Positions 14,317 to 43,637 of a stretch of 64,000 nt of DNA are shown here, one piece after another; the first letter of the stretch is position 1; the number at the start of each line of letters is the position of its first letter. The position numbers and the translations under genes were made by a program. The stretch is taken from contig CAILHZ010000016.1 in NCBI GenBank assembly GCA_903834135.1, positions 248,001 to 312,000 on the forward strand, in the 5' to 3' direction. Source of the stretch: an uncultured Opitutia bacterium (GTDB lineage Bacteria; Verrucomicrobiota; Verrucomicrobiia; Opitutales; Opitutaceae). The notes under the pieces were generated by a model that saw only the letters and a program-made list of their open reading frames with translations, was not told the origin of the DNA and did no database searches.

Positions 14317-14348
14317 AAGGGCGTCCGACAGCAATGTCCGGCGCCCTT
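14317..14348 (+). promoter_or_regulatory. GC-rich leader hairpin just before rsmE start
   Basis: AAGGGCG (14317-14323) pairs with CGCCCTT (14342-14348), with further partial pairing inside (CCG/CGG), and TTATTCATTTTAT follows. It ends 12 nt before the preferred ATG at 14361. It could be an attenuator or simply a 5' UTR structure. The in-frame ATG at 14334 lies inside the loop. Confidence 0.4.
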
Positions 14349-14360
14349 ATTCATTTTATC

Positions 14361-15119
14361 ATGCCTGATTTTCGCTCTTACTACAGCCCGACTAAATCGG
14401 ATACCACTACCCTCATACTAAACGCTGAGGAGTCTCATCATTTAGTGGTTGTTAACCGTGCCGAAGCAGGAGATCCAGTAATTGCTTTCAACGGCAAAGG
14501 AACTGAGTGGATATGCACCCTGATTAAATCAGATAAAAAAGCTGCCCATTTAAACGTTATCTCAGTTACAACGGCCAGCGCACTTCCCTTCTCAATCACA
14601 CTTGCTCAAGCCCTACCCAAGGGAACGCATATGGATGACATAGTCCGTAAAGCAACAGAACTGGGTGTTACTTGTATCATTCCTATTAATACGGAGCGTA
14701 CTCAAGTAAAACTGGAATCCGATCGTTCTGAACGCAAAATAGAAAAATGGCAAAACGCTAGCCTCGAAGCAGCAAAGCAGTGCGGCAATCCATGGCTTCC
14801 TGAAATTACAGGACTACAAGAAATTAAATCAGTTGTAGAATCTGCACAAAAATATGATCTCTGCTTAATAGCTAGTTTAGAAAAAAGTTCTGTTTCTTTA
14901 AAACTTGTTCTTTCCTTGTTTGAAAAAAAATCAGGAAGATCACCCAAGACAGTTTTATGGCTTATCGGTCCTGAAGGTGATTTTACTCCTGAAGAATTAG
15001 CATATGCTAAACAACATGGATTTGAATCAGTAACTCTTGGACCACTAGTTCTAAGGTGTGAAACAGCAGCTATTTCAGCTATCAGTATTTTAGGCTACGA
15101 ATTACAAAATCGTAGCTAA
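14361..15119 (+). CDS. rsmE: 16S rRNA (uracil-1498-N3)-methyltransferase
   Basis: RsmE is a SPOUT-fold enzyme that methylates U1498 of 16S rRNA using S-adenosylmethionine. The 252-residue protein starting MPDFRSYY shows the family motifs INTERTQVKLE, SLEAAKQCGN (family form EA.EQ..R), the SAM knot LIGPEGDFTPEEL and LGPLVLRCETAAISA near the C-terminus. The PUA-like N-domain is residues 1-70. The ATG at 14361 is chosen over 14334, which lies within a leader hairpin and adds residues not found in the family. It converges with fabH, 24 bp apart. Confidence 0.95.
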   Translation: MPDFRSYYSPTKSDTTTLILNAEESHHLVVVNRAEAGDPVIAFNGKGTEWICTLIKSDKKAAHLNVISVTTASALPFSITLAQALPKGTHMDDIVRKATELGVTCIIPINTERTQVKLESDRSERKIEKWQNASLEAAKQCGNPWLPEITGLQEIKSVVESAQKYDLCLIASLEKSSVSLKLVLSLFEKKSGRSPKTVLWLIGPEGDFTPEELAYAKQHGFESVTLGPLVLRCETAAISAISILGYELQNRS

Positions 15120-15143: not shown

Positions 15144-16145
15144 TTACCAGACCATCAGTCCACCTGCAAATGTAAGGCCTGCACCTACACTACAGCAAAT
15201 AATTTTATCTCCTGGAGAAAAAAGTCCTTCTTCAGAAGCCCACCCTAATGCAATCGCAACACTTGCTGCACTTGCATTACCATAGGTCGCAATAGTCATC
15301 ACAAACTTTTCGTAAGGAATACCAACACGCTTACTCACAGCTTGAAGAATACGCTCATTCGCTTGATGAGGAACGACCCACGCAATATCTTCAGGCTTTA
15401 ATCCTTCACGCTCTAAAGTGTCTGTAATCTGCTGTGCAAATCCAACAACTGCGTGTTTAAAGACTGCTGCACCATTCATCTGCAAATAGAAATTATTAAT
15501 ATCAAGTCCGTTTGCATCAGGAACAGGATTTCGTGCTCCACCTCCAAGACGCTGAATTGATTCATACTGATCTGCGTCTCCTGAAATTCCAAAACGGTGC
15601 AAGCGGTGACCACCTTCAGACAAAGTTAAGACTGCCGCACCAGCACCATCTCCAAAAAGAAATGCCGTATCATGATCCTGAGGATTTGTAATACGCGACA
15701 AAAGTTCCGCTGTGACTACCAGTACATGCTTAGATGTACCGGCTTGAAGAAACGAACGTCCTACTTCTAAAGCATACAACCAACCTGAACATGCAGCGTT
15801 TAAATCAAACGCAAAGACATGTGGAATTCCTAAAAGTTTTGCCAGAGAACTCGCCATCGATGGAACGGGCTGATCTGGAATCAAGGTAGCCATGATAATT
15901 CCATCTATCTTACCGACTTCTAAGCCTGACTGAGAAAGCGCATTACGACATGCCTCAGCTGCTAGAGCAGTTGCACTTTCTTCACCTGTTGCACAACGCC
16001 TTTCTTTAATTCCTGTGAGTCGAACAATTTCTGCCTCAGTTCGATTAGGAAACGCCTTTAAAATTTCGCTATTCGCTCGCACTGTTGCTGGTGCAGCAAA
16101 ACCAACACCTGCGATACACACTGATTTGCTAGCGAGATTTGGCAT
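15144..16145 (-). CDS. fabH: Beta-ketoacyl-ACP synthase III
   Basis: FabH starts fatty acid synthesis by condensing an acyl primer with malonyl-ACP. This 333-residue protein has the full catalytic triad in context: Cys in NAACSGWLYALEVG, His in VPHQANERIL and Asn in YGNASAASVAIALG, plus the C-terminal CSVGAGLTFAGGLM. It lies 32 bp downstream of a lipoyl/E3-binding mini-protein on the same strand, an unusual pairing suggesting that its primer may come from a 2-oxoacid dehydrogenase complex (inference). Confidence 0.94.
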   Translation of the reverse strand: MPNLASKSVCIAGVGFAAPATVRANSEILKAFPNRTEAEIVRLTGIKERRCATGEESATALAAEACRNALSQSGLEVGKIDGIIMATLIPDQPVPSMASSLAKLLGIPHVFAFDLNAACSGWLYALEVGRSFLQAGTSKHVLVVTAELLSRITNPQDHDTAFLFGDGAGAAVLTLSEGGHRLHRFGISGDADQYESIQRLGGGARNPVPDANGLDINNFYLQMNGAAVFKHAVVGFAQQITDTLEREGLKPEDIAWVVPHQANERILQAVSKRVGIPYEKFVMTIATYGNASAASVAIALGWASEEGLFSPGDKIICCSVGAGLTFAGGLMVW

Positions 16146-16177
16146 GCAGTAAAAAAGAGTTAAGCAAAGTACCGAAA

Positions 16178-16645
16178 TTACTTATTACGTTTAGCAATAT
16201 AACGCGCTACATCATCACCAGATACACGCCCACCTGGGCCAGTTGCCTCAATATCTAAAATAGTCGCAGGATCTAAACCAGCTTCTTGAGCTACCTTCGT
16301 AGCCTTAGGCGTCCAAATGGCCTTAGGTTTGTCTACTCCAGTTAAGGCTGCAGCTGTAACTAGATCGGCTTGTGTAGTTAAATGCTTTAAGGAAGTGTCC
16401 GAAGTTTCAATTCTTAGAAAAGGACTTCCAGCAGGCTTAACATCTCCTGGTTTAGCCAAAATGGCTTTAAGTACACCATCACACGGAGATTCAAACACAA
16501 AAACCGACTTATCACTCTCTAACTCAGCAACAGCCAAGCCTTTAGATACAGTTGCACCTTGTTCAATTTTAAGACTTACAACCGTTAATTCGTTAACGGT
16601 AGCACCCATCGAGGGCATTGGAACATCAATCAAAAAGGTGTCCAT
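16178..16645 (-). CDS. Lipoyl + peripheral-subunit-binding mini-protein (E2 lacking catalytic domain)
   Basis: This 155-residue protein contains only the two N-terminal modules of a dihydrolipoamide acyltransferase: a lipoyl domain (residues about 4-80, lipoylation Lys in ELESDKSVF) and an E3-binding domain (about 112-152, TPKATKVAQEAGLDP...GPGGRVSGDDVARYI). It stops cleanly after the E3-binding domain. There is no acyltransferase domain and no such sequence in other frames downstream, where fabH begins 32 bp later. It should dock Lpd and carry acyl groups, but cannot transfer them to CoA by itself. Partners are probably the fused E1 (39273-41324) and Lpd (31482-32879). Confidence 0.88.
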   Translation of the reverse strand: MDTFLIDVPMPSMGATVNELTVVSLKIEQGATVSKGLAVAELESDKSVFVFESPCDGVLKAILAKPGDVKPAGSPFLRIETSDTSLKHLTTQADLVTAAALTGVDKPKAIWTPKATKVAQEAGLDPATILDIEATGPGGRVSGDDVARYIAKRNK

Positions 16646-27488: not shown

Positions 27489-30254
27489 ATGAACTCTCTT
27501 TCTATTCCAACAGGCGCTAATGCTGAAATCATCGATGTGATGTACCGCACTTGGCTCGATAATCCAGATGCCGTTGATCCAACATGGCGTGCATTTTTTC
27601 AAGGTTTCTCTTTAGGCAGCAACGGAGGCCGTCCATCCGATGCTGCCGCACGTGATGAATCATCAGGCATCATTGTCGATAGCCTTAAACAATCCCACGT
27701 TCATTACTTAATCGCTGCGTACCGTTCGCTTGGTCACTACCAGTCGCATATAGACCCACTTAGCGAAAAGCCTGCACCTTATTCAAAACTTCAGCTTAGT
27801 GAATTTTCTCTAAGTGATGCAGACCTAAATACTTCATTTGATATTGGCACCTATCTAGGTGGTGGCCAGATGAAGCTAAAAGATGTTATCGCGGCACTTG
27901 AAGAGACCTACTGCGGATACGTAGGCGTTGAATATACGCACATACAAGACCAGGAATGCAGAAAGTGGCTTCAGGACAGAATTGAATCGACTCGGCTTAA
28001 ACCAACATTCTCGGATGCCCAAAAATTACGCATCTTAAGGCATGTCCATAAAGCAGAACTTTTTGAAAAGTTTTTACATACAAAATATGTGGGTCAAAAA
28101 CGATTCTCACTAGAAGGCGGTGAAACAGTCATTGCTGCAATTGACGCTATTATCGATCACTGTCCTGAAACTGGAATTGAAGAAATCGTAATGGGTATGG
28201 CCCACCGCGGACGCCTCAATGTTTTGTGCAGTATTATGCGCAAATCCTTCGATGCTTTGTTTGAGCAATTTTCCGAAAATTATCTTCCTGACTCAGTGGC
28301 AGGTGATGGAGACGTAAAGTATCACTTAGGCTACGAATCGGTTATTACTACACCAAGTGGTGGTAAAGTAGAAGTACGTCTAGCTGCTAATCCCTCTCAC
28401 TTAGAAATTGTTAACCCTATCGTAGAAGGTAAAGCACGTGCACGCCAACGAATCCGTGGTGACTTAGAAGAACGCCGCCGTGTACTTCCTTTACTCATTC
28501 ACGGTGATGCAGCTCTTGCAGGTCAAGGCATAGGTGCAGAAACACTTAATTTCTCCCAACTTCCTGGCTACCGTACAGGTGGAACAGTTCATATTGTAAT
28601 TAATAATCAAATTGGTTTCACAACCGATCCTAAGGACTCACGTTCGAGTCGCTACTGCACAGACGTAGCGAAGATGATTGAAGCTCCGATTTTCCACGTC
28701 AACGGAGACGATCCAGAAGCTGTCTGCATGATTGCTCAACTCGCTGTTGATTTCCGCGTTCGCTTTAAACGCGACGTATTCGTTGATATGCTCTGCTTCC
28801 GTAGACACGGTCATAACGAAACAGATGAGCCTTCGTTTACCCAACCGCTTCTTTATAAGAAGATCAATGCTCACCCACTGATCTCTACACTCTACACAAG
28901 TAAGCTCGTAAGTGAATCAAGTCTTACCTCTGCGCAGGCCGATGCAGTTAAAGCGGAGTATTCTGCATCGCTAGAAGAAAATCTAGCAAAAGCAAAAGCT
29001 CGTGAAGCAAGTAAAGCTGCAAAGCGTGCGAAACCAGGCGATGCCTATAAAGGCTCAACTGCAGTATTTCAACCTACCTACAATCATAAGCCTATTCCGA
29101 CGGGAATCTCTCAGGAGATGCTCACTCGCATTGCAACAGGCTTAGCTGTAGTCCCAGAAAACTTTAAAATTAATCCTAAGGTTAAACGCATCATCGATGC
29201 TCGTCTTGAAGCAAGTAAAACGGGCGGCTCAGCTGACTGGGGATTTGGTGAAGCACTTGCTTTTGGCTCACTACTTATCGAAGGCATTCCAGTACGCTTA
29301 AGCGGTCAAGATTGCGAACGTGGCACATTCAGTCATCGCCATGCCGTACTCTCCGATTCAGAAACTGGTGAAAAATACACCCCGCTGAAAAAGCTAGATC
29401 CAAATCAAGCTAAGTTCTGCGTTTATAATTCCCTGCTCTCCGAGGCAGCTGTACTTGGTTTCGACTATGGCTACTCTTTGGATTATCCTGAAATGTTGCT
29501 ACTTTGGGAAGCTCAGTTCGGTGACTTCGCAAATGGCGCACAGGTAGTAATCGACCAATTCATCGTTAGTGGTGAATCAAAATGGCAACGTACAAGTGGT
29601 ATAGTATTACTTCTTCCGCACGGTTACGAAGGTCAAGGCCCTGAGCATTCCTCAGCACGTCTCGAGCGTTTCCTACAGTCATGTGCTGAGGATAATATCC
29701 AGGTAGCCAATCTGACTACTCCAGCTCAGTACTTCCACATCTTACGTCGTCAGGTAAAACGTGATTTCAAGAAGCCACTGATAATAATGTCGCCTAAGTC
29801 GCTTCTGCGTCATCCTGCAGCTCAATCTAAGTTGGAAGAATTTGTGAGCGGCTCTTTCCACGAAATCTTAGATGATCCACTTTATTCGTCACAGCCAGCA
29901 GGCATCAAACGAGTCATTCTATGTTCAGGTAAAGTTTACTATGACCTAGTAGACTACCGCACTAAGCACAACGTCACAGATACTGCTATTGTTCGTATCG
30001 AACAATTATACCCTCTTCAAAGTGAGCACTTAGCAGAAATTGCTAAACGTTATAAAGGTGCACGTATTATTTGGGCTCAGGAAGAATCTCAGAACATGGG
30101 TGCATGGACGTGGATTAATCCACAACTGCAAAGCCTCTTTGGAACTACGCCTGTTTATGCAGGCCGTGACGCATCCTCTTCACCTGCCGTGGGTGTTCTC
30201 GCACTGCACAAGATCGAACTCGAAAACTTACTTAAAGACGCATTTAGCTTATAA
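27489..30254 (+). CDS. sucA: 2-oxoglutarate dehydrogenase E1 component
   Basis: This 921-residue ThDP enzyme decarboxylates 2-oxoglutarate and passes succinyl to the lipoyl group of SucB. The N-terminal segment ending in PTWRAFFQGF is the E2-interaction motif of OdhA. Then come VIAAIDAIIDH, MGMAHRGRLNVL, NPSHLEIVNPIVEGKARA, QLPGYRTGGTVHIVINNQIGFTT (in parts) and RRHGHNETDEPSFTQP. The C-terminal transketolase-like half has FGEALAFGSLL and GQDCERGTFSHRH. First gene of sucA-sucB-lpd, 20 bp before sucB. Confidence 0.97.
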   Translation: MNSLSIPTGANAEIIDVMYRTWLDNPDAVDPTWRAFFQGFSLGSNGGRPSDAAARDESSGIIVDSLKQSHVHYLIAAYRSLGHYQSHIDPLSEKPAPYSKLQLSEFSLSDADLNTSFDIGTYLGGGQMKLKDVIAALEETYCGYVGVEYTHIQDQECRKWLQDRIESTRLKPTFSDAQKLRILRHVHKAELFEKFLHTKYVGQKRFSLEGGETVIAAIDAIIDHCPETGIEEIVMGMAHRGRLNVLCSIMRKSFDALFEQFSENYLPDSVAGDGDVKYHLGYESVITTPSGGKVEVRLAANPSHLEIVNPIVEGKARARQRIRGDLEERRRVLPLLIHGDAALAGQGIGAETLNFSQLPGYRTGGTVHIVINNQIGFTTDPKDSRSSRYCTDVAKMIEAPIFHVNGDDPEAVCMIAQLAVDFRVRFKRDVFVDMLCFRRHGHNETDEPSFTQPLLYKKINAHPLISTLYTSKLVSESSLTSAQADAVKAEYSASLEENLAKAKAREASKAAKRAKPGDAYKGSTAVFQPTYNHKPIPTGISQEMLTRIATGLAVVPENFKINPKVKRIIDARLEASKTGGSADWGFGEALAFGSLLIEGIPVRLSGQDCERGTFSHRHAVLSDSETGEKYTPLKKLDPNQAKFCVYNSLLSEAAVLGFDYGYSLDYPEMLLLWEAQFGDFANGAQVVIDQFIVSGESKWQRTSGIVLLLPHGYEGQGPEHSSARLERFLQSCAEDNIQVANLTTPAQYFHILRRQVKRDFKKPLIIMSPKSLLRHPAAQSKLEEFVSGSFHEILDDPLYSSQPAGIKRVILCSGKVYYDLVDYRTKHNVTDTAIVRIEQLYPLQSEHLAEIAKRYKGARIIWAQEESQNMGAWTWINPQLQSLFGTTPVYAGRDASSSPAVGVLALHKIELENLLKDAFSL

Positions 30255-30274: not shown

Positions 30275-31477
30275 ATGCCACTCATCGAAGTCAAAATACC
30301 GCCTATGGGCGAATCCATCACCTCCGGAGTTCTTGCCAAGTGGCACGTTAAAGAAGGTGACATTGTAAAAAAAGACCAACCTCTATTTGAACTTGAGACA
30401 GATAAAATTACATCCGAAGGCACTGCTGAAGCCGCAGGCCAAGTTTCTCTTAAAGTAACTGCTGGCACAGAGGTCAAAATTGGCCAAGTCGTTGCATCAA
30501 TTAATGCTGATGTATCCACAGCTGCAGCACCAGCAGCACCAGCAGCTACAGCTGCTGGTGCTACTGCAGCAAAAGTTTCTGCATCTGATACGTCATCTCC
30601 TGCAGTAAGACGTATTGCAGCAGAAACAGGTATTGATCCAGCCTCTGTTTCAGGTTCTGGCAAAGCAGGGCGTGTAACCAAGGGCGACATGCTCAGTGCA
30701 AATGAAGTAAAGCCTGCTGCCATAACTGCACCAGCAGCCGTTGTTAAAGCACCAGTAGCTACACCAGTAGCTGCTGGCACCCGCCAGACACGTAAAAAGA
30801 TGAGCCCTCTACGTCAAAAGATTGCGCAGCGTTTAGTTTCTGCTCAACACGAGGCAGCAATGCTCACCACATTCAATGAAGTGGATATGTCTGCTGTGAT
30901 GGCACTACGTACCAAATACCAAGATGATTTCGTAAAGAAAAACGGATTCAAACTTGGTTTCATGTCATTCTTCACTAAAGCCGTTGTTCATGCACTTAGA
31001 GAAGTTCCTGGAGTAAATGCACAAATCGATGGTGATTCTATTATTGAAAATCACTATTACGATATCGGTATCGCTGTCTCTACAGAAAAGGGTCTTATGG
31101 TTCCAGTGATACGCAACTGCGATACTCAAAGTATGGCTGGAATCGAAGCTGGAATTGGTGACGCTGCAAAGCGCGCTCGTGAAGGCAAAATCACCTTGGC
31201 TGATTTCGAAGGCGGAGTCTTCACAATCACTAACGGAGGCACCTTTGGATCGATGCTATCAACGCCGATCATTAACCCTCCTCAAAGTGCAATTCTTGGC
31301 TTACACGCAATCAACGAACGCCCTGTTGCTGTAAATGGCCAAGTGGTCATTCGTCCTATGATGTATTTGGCTCTCAGTTATGATCATCGCATTGTGGATG
31401 GTCGTGAAGCAGTTACTTTCCTCGTGAAAGTAAAGCAAGCCATTGAAGATCCTGCACGTTTACTCTTAAGCCTCTAA
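30275..31477 (+). CDS. sucB: 2-oxoglutarate dehydrogenase E2 (dihydrolipoamide succinyltransferase)
   Basis: This 400-residue E2 has one lipoyl domain (residues 1-76, Lys in LETDKITSE), an Ala/Pro linker, an E3-binding domain (about 107-143, [15 protein letters not shown]), a second linker and the acyltransferase core (about 170-400) with catalytic [14 protein letters not shown] perfect inverted repeat in the first linker (30535-30562) is noted separately. Four bases before lpd. Confidence 0.97.
30535..30562. repeat. 13-bp inverted repeat within sucB linker codons
   Basis: AGCACCAGCAGCT (30535-30547) and AGCTGCTGGTGCT (30550-30562) are exact complements separated by two bases. They encode part of the Ala-rich linker after the lipoyl domain. 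The mRNA would form a strong hairpin between domain-coding segments. Confidence 0.7.
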
Positions 31478-31481
31478 TCTA

Positions 31482-32879
31482 ATGGATACCTTCGACTTGA
31501 TCATTATCGGAGCTGGCCCTGGCGGCTATGTCTGTGCATTTCGAGCAGCACAACTAGGACTCAAAGTAGCCCTCATTGAAAAACGTGCTACACTTGGAGG
31601 TGCCTGCCTTAATGTAGGTTGTATTCCAAGTAAGGCACTGCTGCATTCAACCGAACAATTTGTTTTCGCTAAACACCATGCTGCAGAACACGGCATTCGT
31701 TTAGGAGAAGTAACTGCAGATATTGCAGCACTCATGAAACGTAAAGACTCCGTAGTCACAAAACTCGTTGGCGGTGTAGCTCAACTGGCTAAAGCGCGTA
31801 AAATTACGGTCCTTACAGGTACAGCATCATTTGTATCTGCAAATGTTCTATCGTTGATTTCTACAGCGGGAATAACTCAACTCACCGCAAAAAATATAGT
31901 AATTGCTACAGGGTCTTCACCTGTCGAATTACCATTCATGAAATTTGACGGAAAGACCGTAGTATCAAGTGACGATGCTATTAGCTTTGAAACAGTACCT
32001 CAAAAACTCGTTGTCGTTGGCGGTGGTGCAATTGGTCTTGAGTTGGGTTCGGTATGGAGTCGTTTAGGTAGTCAAGTTACCGTTGTTGAATTCCTCCCTA
32101 AGATAGCCGCGACCTATGATGACGATATCGTTCGCACCTTTACACGCATTCTAGAAAAACAGGGACTTAAAATTGAAACGGGTGCAAAAGTAACAGGACT
32201 AAAAAAATCTGGTGCAAGCCAGATTCTAACTGCAGAACGTGACGGTAAAGTACTCGAATTTCCTGCAGACAAAATCTTAGTCGCTGTGGGAAGACGTGCT
32301 TATACAGATGGGCTAGCGCTCGAAAATGCAGGTGTTGAACGTGATGAAAAAGGAAGAATCAAAGTTGATTCCCATTTAAAAACAAAAGCTCAAGGTGTGT
32401 GGGCAATTGGCGATGTTGTCGCTGGTCCTATGCTTGCACATAAAGCTGAGGAAGATGGCGTTGCAGTCGCTGAATGGATTGCTGGTAAAGCAGGTCACGT
32501 AAACTGGGACTTAGTTCCAGGTGTTGTTTACACAGAACCTGAAGTTGCATCCGTTGGTATCGGTGAGGATACCGCTAAAGCACAATCTATCGCAGTTAAA
32601 ATCGGTAAATTTAACTTTGCCGCAAATGGAAGGGCTATTGCAATAGACGCAGTTGATGGTTTCGTAAAAATTATTGCTGATGCCAAAACAGATAAAATCT
32701 TAGGCGCTCAAATCGTGGGTCGCGGAGCTGGTGAACTCATATCCGAAATAGTAACGCATATGGAATATGGTGGTAGTGCAGAAGACATTGCACGTACGAT
32801 CCATGCTCACCCAACAATGACAGAAGCAATCAAGGAAGCAGCTCTTGCAGTTTCAAAGAGCGCACTTCACGCGATTTAA
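31482..32879 (+). CDS. lpd: Dihydrolipoamide dehydrogenase (E3)
   Basis: This 465-residue FAD disulfide oxidoreductase reoxidises lipoyl groups with NAD+. FAD motif [19 protein letters not shown], redox-active pair [19 protein letters not shown] motif [15 protein letters not shown], and catalytic [15 protein letters not shown] at the C-terminus. Last gene of the suc operon, and the only E3 in the window, so it may also serve the fused E1/mini-E2 system. Confidence 0.97.
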
Positions 32880-39216: not shown

Positions 39217-39272
39217 ATGTTCATCTATCGCTTGCCCCCGAGCCAAAGGAACCTCATTCTTAGGTATTGCAC

Positions 39273-41324
39273 ATGTCGTTTCCTCAAACGCCCGACATCC
39301 TTGAGAAGCGCTCCTTAAGCGCGTCCCTTCTTGAACATGAATCCAGTACTGCACTTGAGCAGATCTATGCATGGATGTTTTGCTCAAGAACGCTCGATAA
39401 TCGTATTTTAGAGCTCTTTCGCCAAGGACTGATCAAGGGGACGGTGACTGGAGGACAAGGCAACGAAAGTTTGATTGTCCCTCTTGCACTCCTTGCAGAT
39501 AAATCCAAAGACGTCATTTCTTTTACGCACCGCGGGCTTGGTGGACACCTAGTATGGAGTGGTCACATATGTGATCATCTCAACCAGTATTTTGCTAACG
39601 CAGAGAGTCCAACTAAAGGACGAGAAGGTAACATACATCATGGAGATCCAAGTAATAGATCAATCCCCATGATTAGTCATTTAGGAGCAATGACTGGTAC
39701 AGTTCTTGGCCTAACAGATTCTCAGCGCAGGCATGGGCATGACGCAGTCGGATTTACTTTCTTTGGCGATGGTAGCTCAAGTACAGGAGATATTCACGAG
39801 TCTCTTAATTTAGCTTCCTTATTATCCCTACCTATTATTTTTATCGTTGAAAATAATAAGTATGCTTATTCGACACCCATTAGTGAACAGTTTGTTAAAG
39901 GCACTGAACTATGGAAGAGAGCAGCAGGCTACGGCATGGAAGGCTTCAGCCTTGATGCAACGAATCCCCATGCAAGCGCAAAAGTACTCGCACAGGCCAT
40001 CGGTAAAGTTAGATCAACGTCAAAGCCTATACTCATTGAAGCACATACGCTACGCTTACGTGGTCATGCTGCCTATGATACCTGCGACTACCTACTACCA
40101 GGTGAAGCCGAAGGTTTCACAAAACAAGATGGTCTCCCAAAACTTAGAGTAGAACTAGTCGGATTAATTGGAGAAACAAAAGTTCACGCTCTAGAGAATC
40201 AATTAAGTACATTCATAGAAGACTGCATTAAAGTTTCACTTTCTACTAAGCGGCCTTCTGCTGATGGAATGGAAAATGATTTATTCGCTGCAAGCGGTGA
40301 TCCATTCCCTTGGAAAGCAGTTCTAGATAATGACTCGCCAACTTTAAAGTCAGAGAATCTTAATAGCGCACAAGCAATTAATAAGGCGCTTAAGAAAATT
40401 CTTACAGAACGTCCCGAATCCCTACTGCTTGGTCAAGACATCGGCACGTATGGGGGTGCGTTCAAAGTAACTGAAGGACTGCTTAATAAATTTGGCCGTC
40501 CTCGCGTTTTCAATACACCGTTAGCAGAAAGTTCATGCACAGGCTACGCAATTGGTTTAGCTTTGGGAGGACACCGGGCAATTGAAGAATTTCAATTCGC
40601 TGATTTCGTTACTGAAGCAATCACTCAAATTACACTCAATGCAGCGACGATGTACTTTAGATCAGGCGCTAAATGCCCGATCGTATTTCGTTTACCCGCT
40701 GGTGGGGGTCTTACATTTGGGTCCTTCCATTCTCAGGAGCTTGAATCTTTCTTACTAGCGATGCCTGGACTGAAAGCACTGTATCCTTCAACGCCCCAAG
40801 ATGTTTTTAATGCAATGCTTGCAGCATATGAAGACAATAACCCAGTACTTATTTTCGAACACAAGGGGCTATACAGAAAAGGTAAAGGAGAAGTCAGCTG
40901 GGATCCAAATTACCGCTCTGTATGGACACCGCGTTTAGTACGCAGTGGAAATGACGCGACATTTATTACTTATGGCGAAATGGTGAATATCGCCAGCGAA
41001 GCCTGTACCTATTTCGAAGCTGAATACGAAAAGCACTTTGATCTTTTTGATTTACGCTGCCTATCGCCATTAAAGCTAGATGCCATTGAAGCATCCCTTA
41101 AGAAAACGGGGCGTTTAATTATTTTACACGAAGGTCGTATAACACACGGCTTTGGTGCTGAACTCACTGCGCGGTTAGTAGAACGTAATTTTACATCACT
41201 AAAAGCAGTACCTTTAAGAATTGGATCATTAGATCTTCCCGTTCCTTTTGCACCTGAACTAGAGGCTGCTTTTAGACCTAGCACTGAAAAAATTATTGAA
41301 AGGATTACCCCATGGCTAAGCTAA
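39273..41324 (+). CDS. Fused 2-oxoacid dehydrogenase E1 (alpha and beta in one chain)
   Basis: This 683-residue protein joins the two chains that are separate in most pyruvate or branched-chain complexes. The alpha part (about 1-340) has HRGLGGHLVWSG, the ThDP motif FGDGSSSTGDIHESLNLASLLSLPIIFIVENNKYAYST (in parts) and LRLRGHAAYDTCDY. The beta part (about 350-683) has LLLGQDIGTYGGAFKVTEGL, RVFNTPLAESSCTGYAIG and FRLPAGGGLTFGSFHSQE. Similar fusions are known in Chlamydiae, Bacteroidetes and Verrucomicrobia. No E2 or E3 gene is next to it; the lone lipoyl/E3-binding mini-protein at 16178-16645 is the best candidate partner here. Its end overlaps kdsC by 13 bp. Confidence 0.9.
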   Translation: MSFPQTPDILEKRSLSASLLEHESSTALEQIYAWMFCSRTLDNRILELFRQGLIKGTVTGGQGNESLIVPLALLADKSKDVISFTHRGLGGHLVWSGHICDHLNQYFANAESPTKGREGNIHHGDPSNRSIPMISHLGAMTGTVLGLTDSQRRHGHDAVGFTFFGDGSSSTGDIHESLNLASLLSLPIIFIVENNKYAYSTPISEQFVKGTELWKRAAGYGMEGFSLDATNPHASAKVLAQAIGKVRSTSKPILIEAHTLRLRGHAAYDTCDYLLPGEAEGFTKQDGLPKLRVELVGLIGETKVHALENQLSTFIEDCIKVSLSTKRPSADGMENDLFAASGDPFPWKAVLDNDSPTLKSENLNSAQAINKALKKILTERPESLLLGQDIGTYGGAFKVTEGLLNKFGRPRVFNTPLAESSCTGYAIGLALGGHRAIEEFQFADFVTEAITQITLNAATMYFRSGAKCPIVFRLPAGGGLTFGSFHSQELESFLLAMPGLKALYPSTPQDVFNAMLAAYEDNNPVLIFEHKGLYRKGKGEVSWDPNYRSVWTPRLVRSGNDATFITYGEMVNIASEACTYFEAEYEKHFDLFDLRCLSPLKLDAIEASLKKTGRLIILHEGRITHGFGAELTARLVERNFTSLKAVPLRIGSLDLPVPFAPELEAAFRPSTEKIIERITPWLS

Positions 41325-41830
41325 CACCTCAGCACATTCCCATTTCTTTTTGGAGTACAGTTAAGCTCTTTGCGATGGATGTAGACGGTATACTAACAGA
41401 CGGAACCATTCAGATTTCATCCGATGGCACAGAGACAAAATCATTTTCAATCTTAGATGGCATGGGACTTCGTCAAGTGATTATGTCTGGGATTGAAGTC
41501 GCATGGATTAGTGGCCGCGCATCTGGTGCTACGACCCTGCGTGCAAAAGAACTAGGTATTCCACACGTCATTCAAGGTCGCGTAGATAAAATTACGGCTC
41601 TTGAAGAACTTGCTAGCAAATTAAACATAGATGCAAAAGCCTGCGTCTATATGGGAGATGACGATATTGATGCTCCGGCTCTTAAGTGGGCAGGCCTTGG
41701 TATATCTGTTCCCACAGCAATGCCCTCTGCAAAAGAGGCTTCAAGTTGTATCACTGAGAAGGCAGCCGGTTACGGTGCTGTACGTGAAGTATGTGAACGG
41801 CTTACCGAAGCCAATAAGCCGAAGTTGTAA
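41312..41830 (+). CDS. kdsC: KDO 8-phosphate phosphatase
   Basis: This 172-residue HAD phosphatase lacks a cap (type C0) and makes free KDO for lipid A core synthesis. Motifs: FAMDVDGILTDG (nucleophile and acid Asp), SILDGMGLRQVIMSGIEVAWISGR (in parts), KITALEELASKL and YMGDDDIDAPALKWAG. It has an AGGA sequence at a good distance from the ATG. It begins the LPS export unit kdsC-lptC-lptA-lptB. Confidence 0.93.
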   Translation: MAKLTPQHIPISFWSTVKLFAMDVDGILTDGTIQISSDGTETKSFSILDGMGLRQVIMSGIEVAWISGRASGATTLRAKELGIPHVIQGRVDKITALEELASKLNIDAKACVYMGDDDIDAPALKWAGLGISVPTAMPSAKEASSCITEKAAGYGAVREVCERLTEANKPKL

Positions 41831-41851
41831 TTTTAGCTCCCGTTCACCCAA

Positions 41852-42310
41852 GTGAAATTCCGTTTATTTATCCTCTGCGTTACAGTACTAGGTCTTGCAG
41901 CAGGAAGTGCGTCGCTACTAAGCCAAGTTAAAAGCGATTCAACCAATACCCTTCCTCCAGGCCTTCAATGGAAACTTCCTTTATTCACTAAAGAGGGGTT
42001 TCGTTCTATGAGTCTTAGAGGAGACAGAGTTATCCCTATTGGAAGCGACCGTATCGATGTCGATAACATCGAAATTATGGTTTTTTCGGGTGATAAAAAA
42101 CAAACTGTAAGCACTATCTTATTAAGCCCTAAAGCCAGCTACTACGCAAAAGCAGCTGAGGTAAAAGGCAGTGGTGAAGTACGAGTAATTCGTGATAATG
42201 GCGAAATTTCTGGCGAAAATTGGCAATATAAGCGTGTTGGAGAAAAGATTTCCATCCGTCGCAATGCTCGAGTAGTTTTTAAAGAACAAGTTACTGATAT
42301 GCTCCGATGA
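41852..42310 (+). CDS. lptC: LptC-like LPS export protein
   Basis: This 152-residue protein has an N-terminal membrane anchor (residues 4-24, LFILCVTVLGLAAGSASLLS) and a beta-rich periplasmic part (SMSLRGDRVIPIGSDRIDVDNIEIMVF in parts) like the beta-jellyroll of LptC. It bridges LptBFG and LptA. The call rests mainly on its position between kdsC and lptA; the sequence itself is divergent. GTG start; ATGA overlap with lptA. Confidence 0.78.
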   Translation: MKFRLFILCVTVLGLAAGSASLLSQVKSDSTNTLPPGLQWKLPLFTKEGFRSMSLRGDRVIPIGSDRIDVDNIEIMVFSGDKKQTVSTILLSPKASYYAKAAEVKGSGEVRVIRDNGEISGENWQYKRVGEKISIRRNARVVFKEQVTDMLR

Positions 42311-42906
42311 AAACCTTTCTAAGTCTAACTCCTCTAGTGTTCGGATTGTGTGTAATATCATACGCTGCTGCACCTCAAGCTCAGCCTACCGTCATTACAA
42401 GTGATCAACTTGAAGCTCGCAGTACAGACACAGAAACAGATTCTCATTTTACAGATAATGTTAATGTAAGCGGGACCAATCTCTCAATTAAGTGCGACCA
42501 CTTAGAGGTCGTTACTTCTAAGCTCGCTAATAAAACTGATACACTCGGAAATCCACAGCACTTTAAGTACATGCTTGCAACAGGCCATGTCCGTATTGTT
42601 CAAGGTGACCGCGAGGCAACGTGTGAGCGTGCTGAAGTGATGCCTAATGATGATAAGATTACTTTAACTGGCCATCCTTCTGTTACTGATCATGGCAACG
42701 GCTCTATTTTAACAGGAGAACCTCTGATTCTGTATAAGACACAACGAATCGCTCGCGGTAAGAATGTCAGAATCACAATGCCTCCACTAAAAGATTTGGG
42801 TTACGATAAAAATCAAGCCCCTCCTTCTTTACCGCCTCCACCTGCTCCTATTAAGATTACAATTCCAGTAATCAGTCCGAATGCAGCACAGCCTGAAACA
42901 AAATGA
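42307..42906 (+). CDS. lptA: LptA/OstA-like periplasmic LPS bridge protein
   Basis: This 199-residue protein has a signal peptide (residues 1-22) and an OstA-type beta-jellyroll: VITSDQLEARSTDTETDSHFTDNVNVSGTNLSIKCDHLEV (in parts), ATGHVRIVQGDREATCERAEVMP, ending in a Pro-rich tail (LPPPPAPIK). It carries LPS across the periplasm. ATGA overlaps on both sides indicate translational coupling. Confidence 0.88.
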   Translation: MKTFLSLTPLVFGLCVISYAAAPQAQPTVITSDQLEARSTDTETDSHFTDNVNVSGTNLSIKCDHLEVVTSKLANKTDTLGNPQHFKYMLATGHVRIVQGDREATCERAEVMPNDDKITLTGHPSVTDHGNGSILTGEPLILYKTQRIARGKNVRITMPPLKDLGYDKNQAPPSLPPPPAPIKITIPVISPNAAQPETK

Positions 42907-43637
42907 GCACACAAAACTCATCGATTCAGACTGAAGGTCTAGTTAAGACGTACGGAACAAAGTCAGTTGTTAATGGAGTAAATTTAACGATTAAAGCAGG
43001 TGAAGTTGTTGGTCTACTCGGCCCAAATGGTGCAGGCAAAACAACCACGTTTTATATGATCGTGGGACTAGTACCTGCAACTTCAGGACGAGTTCTCTTT
43101 GATGGTAAAGATATCACTCAATTACGGATGCATGAGCGTGCCCGTACAGGCATTGGATATCTTCCTCAGGAACCTTCCGTATTTAGAAAATTAACTGTTG
43201 CTGAAAATATTCTAGCAATCACTGAAGCCGTGGGCATGTCTAAATCTCTGCGTGGCCCAGAAGTTGAATTACGCCTTAAAGAATTAAATTTAACATCAGT
43301 AGCTGATCAAAAAGCATACACCCTTTCAGGTGGCGAAAGACGCCGCTTAGAAATTGCACGCACTCTGGTGATGCGGCCAAAATTTTTACTGATGGATGAG
43401 CCGTTTGCAGCAATCGATCCAATCTCGGTTTCCGAGGTTCAGAAAATTATCCTGCAACTTAAGAGTCAAGGAATCGGTATTATAGTCACAGACCATAACG
43501 TGAGAGAAACACTACGTATTGTAGACCGTGCTTACCTCATTCATAAGGGAAAGGTGCTCACTGAAGGTTCAGGAGATTTTCTCATTCAAGATGCTCAAGC
43601 AAAGAAATTCTATTTAGGCGAGAATTTCGACCTTTGA
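42903..43637 (+). CDS. lptB: LPS export ABC transporter ATPase
   Basis: This 244-residue ABC ATPase has Walker A GPNGAGKTT (about 40-48), Q-loop YLPQEPSVFRKLTV (the LptB-typical sequence), signature LSGGERRRLEIARTL, Walker B FLLMDEPFAAIDP and H-loop VTDHNVRET. It drives LPS extraction with LptFG, which are not in this window. Confidence 0.95.
   Translation: MSTQNSSIQTEGLVKTYGTKSVVNGVNLTIKAGEVVGLLGPNGAGKTTTFYMIVGLVPATSGRVLFDGKDITQLRMHERARTGIGYLPQEPSVFRKLTVAENILAITEAVGMSKSLRGPEVELRLKELNLTSVADQKAYTLSGGERRRLEIARTLVMRPKFLLMDEPFAAIDPISVSEVQKIILQLKSQGIGIIVTDHNVRETLRIVDRAYLIHKGKVLTEGSGDFLIQDAQAKKFYLGENFDL

Follow-up and report, generated by a model that had tools for sequence, protein, structure and literature searches.

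A lipoyl-domain carrier joined to a ketosynthase III in Opitutaceae may connect a 2-oxoacid dehydrogenase to fatty-acid initiation without free acyl-CoA

Bacillus and Staphylococcus combine a branched-chain 2-oxoacid dehydrogenase (BCKDH), the E2 component of which makes free acyl-CoA, with the ketosynthase FabH. The closest known idea to the system described here is BkdABC of Photorhabdus, reported as a Bkd complex that gives rise to iso-fatty acids and a 3-oxoacyl thioester and whose BkdB contains an acyl carrier protein (ACP) domain (PMC4578411, PMC3838401, PMC4901931). We analysed a stretch of 64,000 nucleotides (the window; contig CAILHZ010000016.1) from an uncultured Opitutia bacterium, whose own genome comprises 2.65 Mb in 26 contigs and is 94% complete. 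This organism belongs to the Opitutaceae, a family of soil and water bacteria. The window codes for a small lipoyl protein (the carrier), for an adjacent paralogue of the ketosynthase III (KASIII) family, termed KAS2, and for a fused E1 component. On balance we favour the reading that this is a 2-oxoacid dehydrogenase system in which a KASIII has taken the place of the E2 core, with direct acyl transfer and no free acyl-CoA. The three genes are:

15144..16145, minus strand: KAS2, a KASIII paralogue (Pfam and NCBIfam, alignments to PDB entries, residue counts, AlphaFold2 (AF2) model)
16178..16645, minus strand: carrier ("mini-E2"), with a lipoyl domain (Lys46 in ESDKS) and a peripheral subunit-binding domain (PSBD), without acyltransferase (Pfam)
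39267..41324, plus strand: fused E1alpha-E1beta 2-oxoacid dehydrogenase (Pfam); an ATG start is possible at 39273

Window proteins and fused relatives were scanned with Pfam at a threshold of E 0.001. Within the 155 residues of the carrier, Biotin_lipoyl (PF00364) covers residues 7-79 (E 1.1e-12) and E3_binding (PF02817), representing the PSBD, residues 112-146 (E 9.5e-6, 26.2 bits against a cut-off of 23.7). The CoA acyltransferase domain 2-oxoacid_dh (PF00198) gave no match at this threshold, nor did any further Pfam domain, and an ACP domain was matched neither in the carrier nor in KAS2 nor in four fused relatives. The original prediction of a 155-residue lipoyl and E3-binding protein that lacks an acyltransferase was thus correct, as were the coordinates of the KASIII gene (333 codons) and its distance of 32 bp downstream of the carrier gene. 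Lys46 is invariant in 30 of 30 aligned carrier homologues, lipoylation itself being predicted. The own genome of the window codes for three E3_binding domains, which are those of SucB, of the E2 of pyruvate dehydrogenase (PDH) and of the carrier.

A close homologue of the carrier (at least 100 bits) was found in 33 of the 57 relatives searched, with best segments that are 49-71% identical, the window's own excepted. The same KASIII adjoins the carrier or is fused to it in 32 of these 33 relatives, the exception being G027 (genomes, contigs and loci are cited under our own numbers: G, C and L). Conservation of the FabH-like neighbour had been part of the original prediction, and it extends to fusion into one chain in many relatives. 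Judged from these gene arrangements, the pairing of carrier and KASIII is no chance adjacency.

In 14 of the 33 relatives, the carrier lies inside an open frame of 526-611 amino acids, and in the fused frames looked at lipoyl domain, PSBD and KASIII form one chain. All four fused chains that were scanned (G016, G024, G043, G272) match Biotin_lipoyl, E3_binding (31.9-46.3 bits), ACP_syn_III and ACP_syn_III_C. An AF2 model of a fused chain, which is of low confidence and in which the KASIII is poorly modelled (pLDDT 67.7, Foldseek rmsd ~13), has disordered stretches between lipoyl domain, PSBD and KASIII, as found in E2 arms. By its predicted domains, the chimera is an E2 in which a ketosynthase serves as the catalytic domain. 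The carrier itself is not classed as an E2, because PF00198 is missing and a KASIII stands in its place in the four fused relatives. Besides the usual pair, one genome, G272, has another carrier-KASIII pair that is more divergent and lies in a single frame (G272:C66:12449-13978); its KASIII part is 56% identical to that of the window.

A scan of GTDB species genomes, from which the best 80 of 218 relatives were kept as loci (L077-L156), allowed the order of events to be addressed. These loci are labelled Opitutaceae or its genera, Opitutae/Opitutia, or unspecific Verrucomicrobia. Twenty are fused, 42 are split with both genes adjacent on one strand, and 18 have the carrier only. Of cultured relatives, Ereboglobus has the fused form and Opitutus terrae, provided that G015 represents it, the split one. 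By tblastn, 61 of the 80 loci have KAS2, 16 do not although they extend to the boundary gene on the far side (an rsmE-like gene, see below), and 3 are cut off too soon to tell. In a KAS2 tree (FastTree, rooted on canonical FabH, with several organisms present twice from two sources), 59 split rows form a single clade (SH-like 98) among 35 fused rows, and in a tree of short carriers the 19 rows without KAS2 need two changes. Since the split clade nests among fused rows and the rows without KAS2 need only these changes, the data are most simply explained by an ancestral fused chimera, of which the window is a later split, with KAS2 being lost subsequently inside the split lineage. The fused form as the ancestral one is well supported.

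KAS2 matches ACP_syn_III and ACP_syn_III_C, passes the NCBIfam model NF006829 (315 bits, cut-off 249) and falls just under the cut-off of the fabH model TIGR00747 (288.7 vs 292.1 bits). Its AF2 model (pLDDT 92.6) has the FabH fold and superposes on E. coli FabH (1hn9, 9ka5) with an rmsd of 1.6-1.7. The catalytic triad is Cys119-His260-Asn290. PDB alignments place E39, L43 and H158 of KAS2 where E. coli FabH has Trp32, Arg36 and Arg151, which contact CoA (PMC4606726). When 78 unique KAS2 sequences were compared, numbered by E. coli FabH, Trp32, Arg36 and Arg151 were each found in none of them, and position 32 is Glu in 76. All 78 retain the Cys-His-Asn triad and Arg249, which we take to be the ACP-docking residue, and have Lys or Arg at the positions of Lys256 and Lys257. 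The Trp, Arg and Arg are all kept in the 46 canonical FabHs (30 plus 16 more) collected from related genomes, and also in the five PDB FabH alignments shown (5/5). The KAS2 pattern would look like that of a ketosynthase that meets malonyl-ACP but no longer CoA.

KAS2 itself served as the query in 41 genomes, while the 57 relatives were covered by a search with canonical FabH. In the own genome of the window there are three KASIII C-terminal domains, which belong to KAS2, to the canonical FabH encoded after plsX and to a divergent protein within a presumed Ole-type cluster. Two genomes, G009 and G028, have KAS2 while canonical FabH was not found; both are 94% complete drafts, and these could be gaps. 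The divergent KASIIIs that the FabH search showed in four genomes of other families are distinct from KAS2 (28-33% identical). Another family of the order has a KASIII inside a 1131-residue frame (L264; G055:C1:724000-726500), which lacks Trp32, Arg36 and Arg151 and has Arg249.

The fused E1, originally placed at 39273-41324, was confirmed with a start at 39267 or 39273; it carries E1_dh (PF00676), Transket_pyr (PF02779) and Transketolase_C (PF02780). Its connection to the carrier was examined in a class set of 385 genomes, each at least 85% complete, with cut-offs of at least 99 bits for the carrier family and E <=1e-130 for the fused E1. Carrier and fused E1 both occur in the same 38 genomes, neither occurs in the other 347, and none has one alone. 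The family, represented by 40 genomes, accounts for 37 of the 38, the remaining one being G043 from another family; one of the carriers is cut by a contig end. The next matches to the carrier model reach at most 72 bits and lie inside E2-sized frames. Among the 57 relatives, 33 have both, 22 have neither and two have E1 only (G023 and G026, 67% and 81% complete). Each of these two shows KAS2, or a part of it, at the edge of a contig, and such a fragment is also present in G007 (64% complete), one of the 22 with neither; the carrier was found in none of the three. Five family genomes that are 94-100% complete have neither E1 nor carrier (G021, G022, G078, G265, G418). Within the genomes sampled, the pairing of E1 and carrier is strict.

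A full-length E2 for the fused E1 elsewhere in the genome had been named in advance as contrary evidence, and none was found. The own genome has two PF00198 domains, one in SucB and one in the PDH E2 on contig C25, the latter with its own E1alpha and E1beta genes beside it, which are separate and of the PDH type (PDH assigned by eye). Because both of these E2s have an E1 of their own, no full-length E2 is left for the fused E1. This is the only genome in which the pair of ordinary E2s was assigned to OGDH (SucB) and PDH. Of 35 KAS2-bearing family genomes, 34 have at most two PF00198 matches outside the one-chain protein described below; G012 has three. A third, medium match occurs in G309, which lacks KAS2. 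In G043, which has E1 and a fused carrier-KAS2 and is 96% complete, PF00198 was not found at E 1e-10. That E1 might seem to lack an E2 through incomplete assembly was rejected, as 38 of 38 E1 genomes have the carrier and 34 of 35 KAS2-bearing genomes do not exceed two PF00198 matches.

The original prediction had proposed a CoA-free route from E1 through the carrier to FabH. Its E1-carrier link is supported by co-occurrence. As a whole it is only partly supported, because direct transfer is what we infer, the acyl group may be branched or acetyl, and 14 of the 38 genomes with E1 and carrier show no KAS2. These 14 genomes would also fit the view that the carrier is a binding-protein subunit for PDH or 2-oxoglutarate dehydrogenase (OGDH), like the mammalian E3-binding protein (E3BP), or a spare lipoyl domain, with KAS2 being functionally unrelated; the lipoyl-PSBD make-up resembles that of E3BP. 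However, in many relatives the carrier is fused with KASIII, and its presence tracks the fused E1 exactly, while ordinary E2s also occur in the five carrier-less family genomes. We therefore consider this view hardly probable at all.

If a KASIII has indeed replaced the E2 core, the fused E1 would decarboxylate a 2-oxoacid, probably a branched one, and reductively acylate the lipoyl-lysine of the carrier, with the PSBD recruiting E1, the Lpd encoded in the operon of 2-oxoglutarate dehydrogenase, or both. Loaded with the acyl group, the dihydrolipoyl arm would swing to the KASIII next door, which is on the same chain in many relatives. The KASIII Cys would take the acyl group and condense it with malonyl-ACP to 3-oxoacyl-ACP. 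This would be the first step of (iso/anteiso) fatty-acid synthesis, without a free acyl-CoA intermediate, and Lpd would reoxidise the lipoyl arm. We infer all of these chemical steps (acylation by E1, transfer to the KASIII Cys, condensation, reoxidation) and the branched substrate from sequence.

Several observations weigh against this reading. As 14 of the 38 genomes lack KAS2, the carrier can be kept without it. Nine of these 14 have a one-chain E1-lipoyl-E2 dehydrogenase and five do not; in G149, G194, G237, G306 and G316 a fused E1 and a lone carrier were found and neither KAS2 nor the one-chain dehydrogenase. In all 14, canonical FabH has its CoA residues intact. Absence of the CoA clamp (Trp32, Arg36, Arg151) was rejected as proof, since Trp32 and Arg36 are also missing from six further KASIIIs of the order, paralogues with 28-33% identity to KAS2, and Arg151 from three of these. 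Losing the clamp is thus no mark of lipoyl-linked enzymes alone. Arg249 is absent from five of the six, and no carrier-like frame was found near them within the stretches fetched. The distance between the E1 and carrier genes is short, in favour of the reading, in the window (23 kb), G024 (12 kb), G272 (16 kb) and G288 (18 kb), but they are far apart in other single-contig genomes (~0.7 Mb in G016, 0.15 Mb in G157).

The genomes without KAS2, their intact FabHs, the one-chain dehydrogenase, which could act in trans, and the clamp loss in other KASIIIs would all agree with CoA still being used. The carrier would then serve the fused E1, the E2 acyltransferase of another complex would make acyl-CoA in trans, and KAS2 would be an acyl-CoA-using FabH kept near the source. 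We regard this as possible though unlikely. PF00198 was not found in G043, the three CoA residues are lost in all 78 KAS2 sequences, and mere closeness would hardly account for lipoyl domain, PSBD and KASIII being fused in one chain if another protein had to act between them.

The one-chain dehydrogenase is a protein of ~1050 residues that combines E1alpha, E1beta and lipoyl domains with a PF00198 domain of weak match, as judged by reading the sequences from six genomes and by Pfam scans of two; a PSBD was not found by Pfam in the two proteins scanned. Examples are L240 740-3865 (G265) and L241 306-3533 (G078), and also L242-L245. Matches to this unusual all-in-one type, which is BCKDH-like by eye, came from 17 of the 57 genomes examined within the family, and some further families have them too. 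A match was found in all five family genomes without E1 and carrier (5/5). In total, 14 of 19 family genomes without KAS2 have it vs 3 of 35 with KAS2; these are raw counts, with too few independent pairs for a tree test, and G007 (in which E1 was not found either), G023 and G026 were left out as their state is unclear. A CoA-forming one-chain dehydrogenase may replace the KAS2 route.

The substrate of E1 is a further point to be weighed. Among solved structures, the E1alpha part best matches human BCKDH (94 bits, vs 75 for Bacillus PDH) but the E1beta part best matches Bacillus PDH (210 bits, vs 185 for human BCKDH), so that E1 could be specific for branched 2-oxoacids or for pyruvate. Nor is the system the sole source of branched acids: in G265, which is probably Lacunisphaera limnophila, none of carrier, E1 and KAS2 was found, and this species is reported to have 48.6% iso-C15:0 (PMC5303756) and 6.6% iso-C13:0 3-OH. 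In a published table, Opitutaceae species are rich in iso/anteiso acids, with Opitutus terrae not determined there, and anteiso-C15:0 is likewise abundant in species from the order's other families (PMC12193912); among the other families sampled, only that of G043 has the system.

With the E1beta match, direct transfer might still occur but with a pyruvate-specific E1, which would give acetoacetyl-ACP and hence a CoA-free acetyl primer for straight-chain acids. To this we assign a still smaller probability than to continued use of CoA. The own genome already has a PDH, E1alpha is nearest to BCKDH, branched acids are major in those Opitutaceae for which we have published values, and the BCKDH-like one-chain dehydrogenase is present in each of the five family members that lack the system.

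The genes around the three components are:

14334..15119, plus strand: rsmE-like gene (gene name presumed), convergent with KAS2, a frequent locus boundary in relatives (synteny)
27489..30254, plus strand: sucA, OGDH E1 (context; NF006914, 1263 bits)
30275..31477, plus strand: sucB, full-length OGDH E2, which goes with sucA (context; NF004309, 552 bits, PF00198)
31482..32879, plus strand: Lpd (E3), last gene of the OGDH operon (TIGR01350, 556 bits)
41312..43637, plus strand: kdsC-lptC-lptA-lptB, conserved downstream of E1 (HAD domain of kdsC by Pfam)

The Lpd at 31482-32879 is real, as originally predicted, but it closes a complete sucA-sucB-lpd operon with a full-length sucB that had gone unmentioned. 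A Lpd dedicated to the carrier system was therefore rejected. The OGDH Lpd is presumed to reoxidise also the dihydrolipoyl group of the carrier.

The fused E1 overlaps kdsC by 13 bp and precedes it on the same strand in 29 of 31 E1 loci fetched (25 of 27 distinct genomes). We take the kdsC and lpt names from the sequences, of which only kdsC was scanned for its HAD domain. In 72 of the 80 GTDB loci, kdsA is followed by the carrier on the same strand; the window is an exception, its carrier not being beside kdsA. E1 goes with kdsC-lptC-lptA-lptB, and the carrier in most relatives with pyrG-kdsA, which places both halves beside genes for 3-deoxy-D-manno-octulosonate (KDO) and lipopolysaccharide (LPS). 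This synteny, with lpt genes mostly following E1, would be expected if the system primed acyl chains for outer-membrane LPS only and not for general membranes. It is synteny alone, however, and the position of the carrier in the window does not conform to it. The probable L. limnophila genome lacks the system, yet the species has the 3-hydroxy acid given above. We consider a role restricted to LPS highly improbable.

Going beyond the replacement of the E2 core, it seems to us evenly balanced whether this is a third priming route, an E1-lipoyl-KASIII "dehydrogenase-ketosynthase" with an acyl-dihydrolipoyl-protein as donor in place of acyl-CoA or acyl-ACP, which descends from a single lipoyl-PSBD-KASIII chain and whose KASIII tends to be missing where a one-chain E1-lipoyl-E2 is present. 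If this is true, fatty-acid initiation can be separated from CoA, and a 2-oxoacid dehydrogenase can have an E2 with a ketosynthase exchanged for its catalytic core. It would also offer a compact engineering route to branched 3-oxoacyl-ACP, and a gene that might be annotated as a truncated or broken E2 would gain a definite function.

Among the matches listed, no description of a lipoyl-KASIII protein was found in the accessible open-access literature, most subscription journals being outside this scope. In transfer of the quinocarcin/naphthyridinomycin type, E1/E2-like proteins deliver to an ACP; a look at the literature on it gave nothing usable. Like the chimera, the E2s of PDH, OGDH and BCKDH consist of a lipoyl domain, a flexible linker, a PSBD, another flexible linker and a catalytic domain, and work with an E1. 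They differ in that their catalytic domain is the CoA acyltransferase PF00198, while it is a KASIII here. With FabH/KASIII, KAS2 shares the fold (TM 0.91 to E. coli FabH), the Cys-His-Asn triad and Arg249. Unlike FabH, it is fused to or located beside a lipoyl-PSBD carrier and has lost the CoA-holding residues, and a canonical FabH after plsX is also present. The route of Bacillus and Staphylococcus likewise leads from a 2-oxoacid via a branched primer to FabH, but here no E2 acyltransferase is assigned to E1. In Photorhabdus, BkdB is reported as a carrier with an ACP domain that needs a phosphopantetheinyl transferase, whereas the carrier described here has a lipoyl domain and a PSBD, and a housekeeping setting is likely for it.
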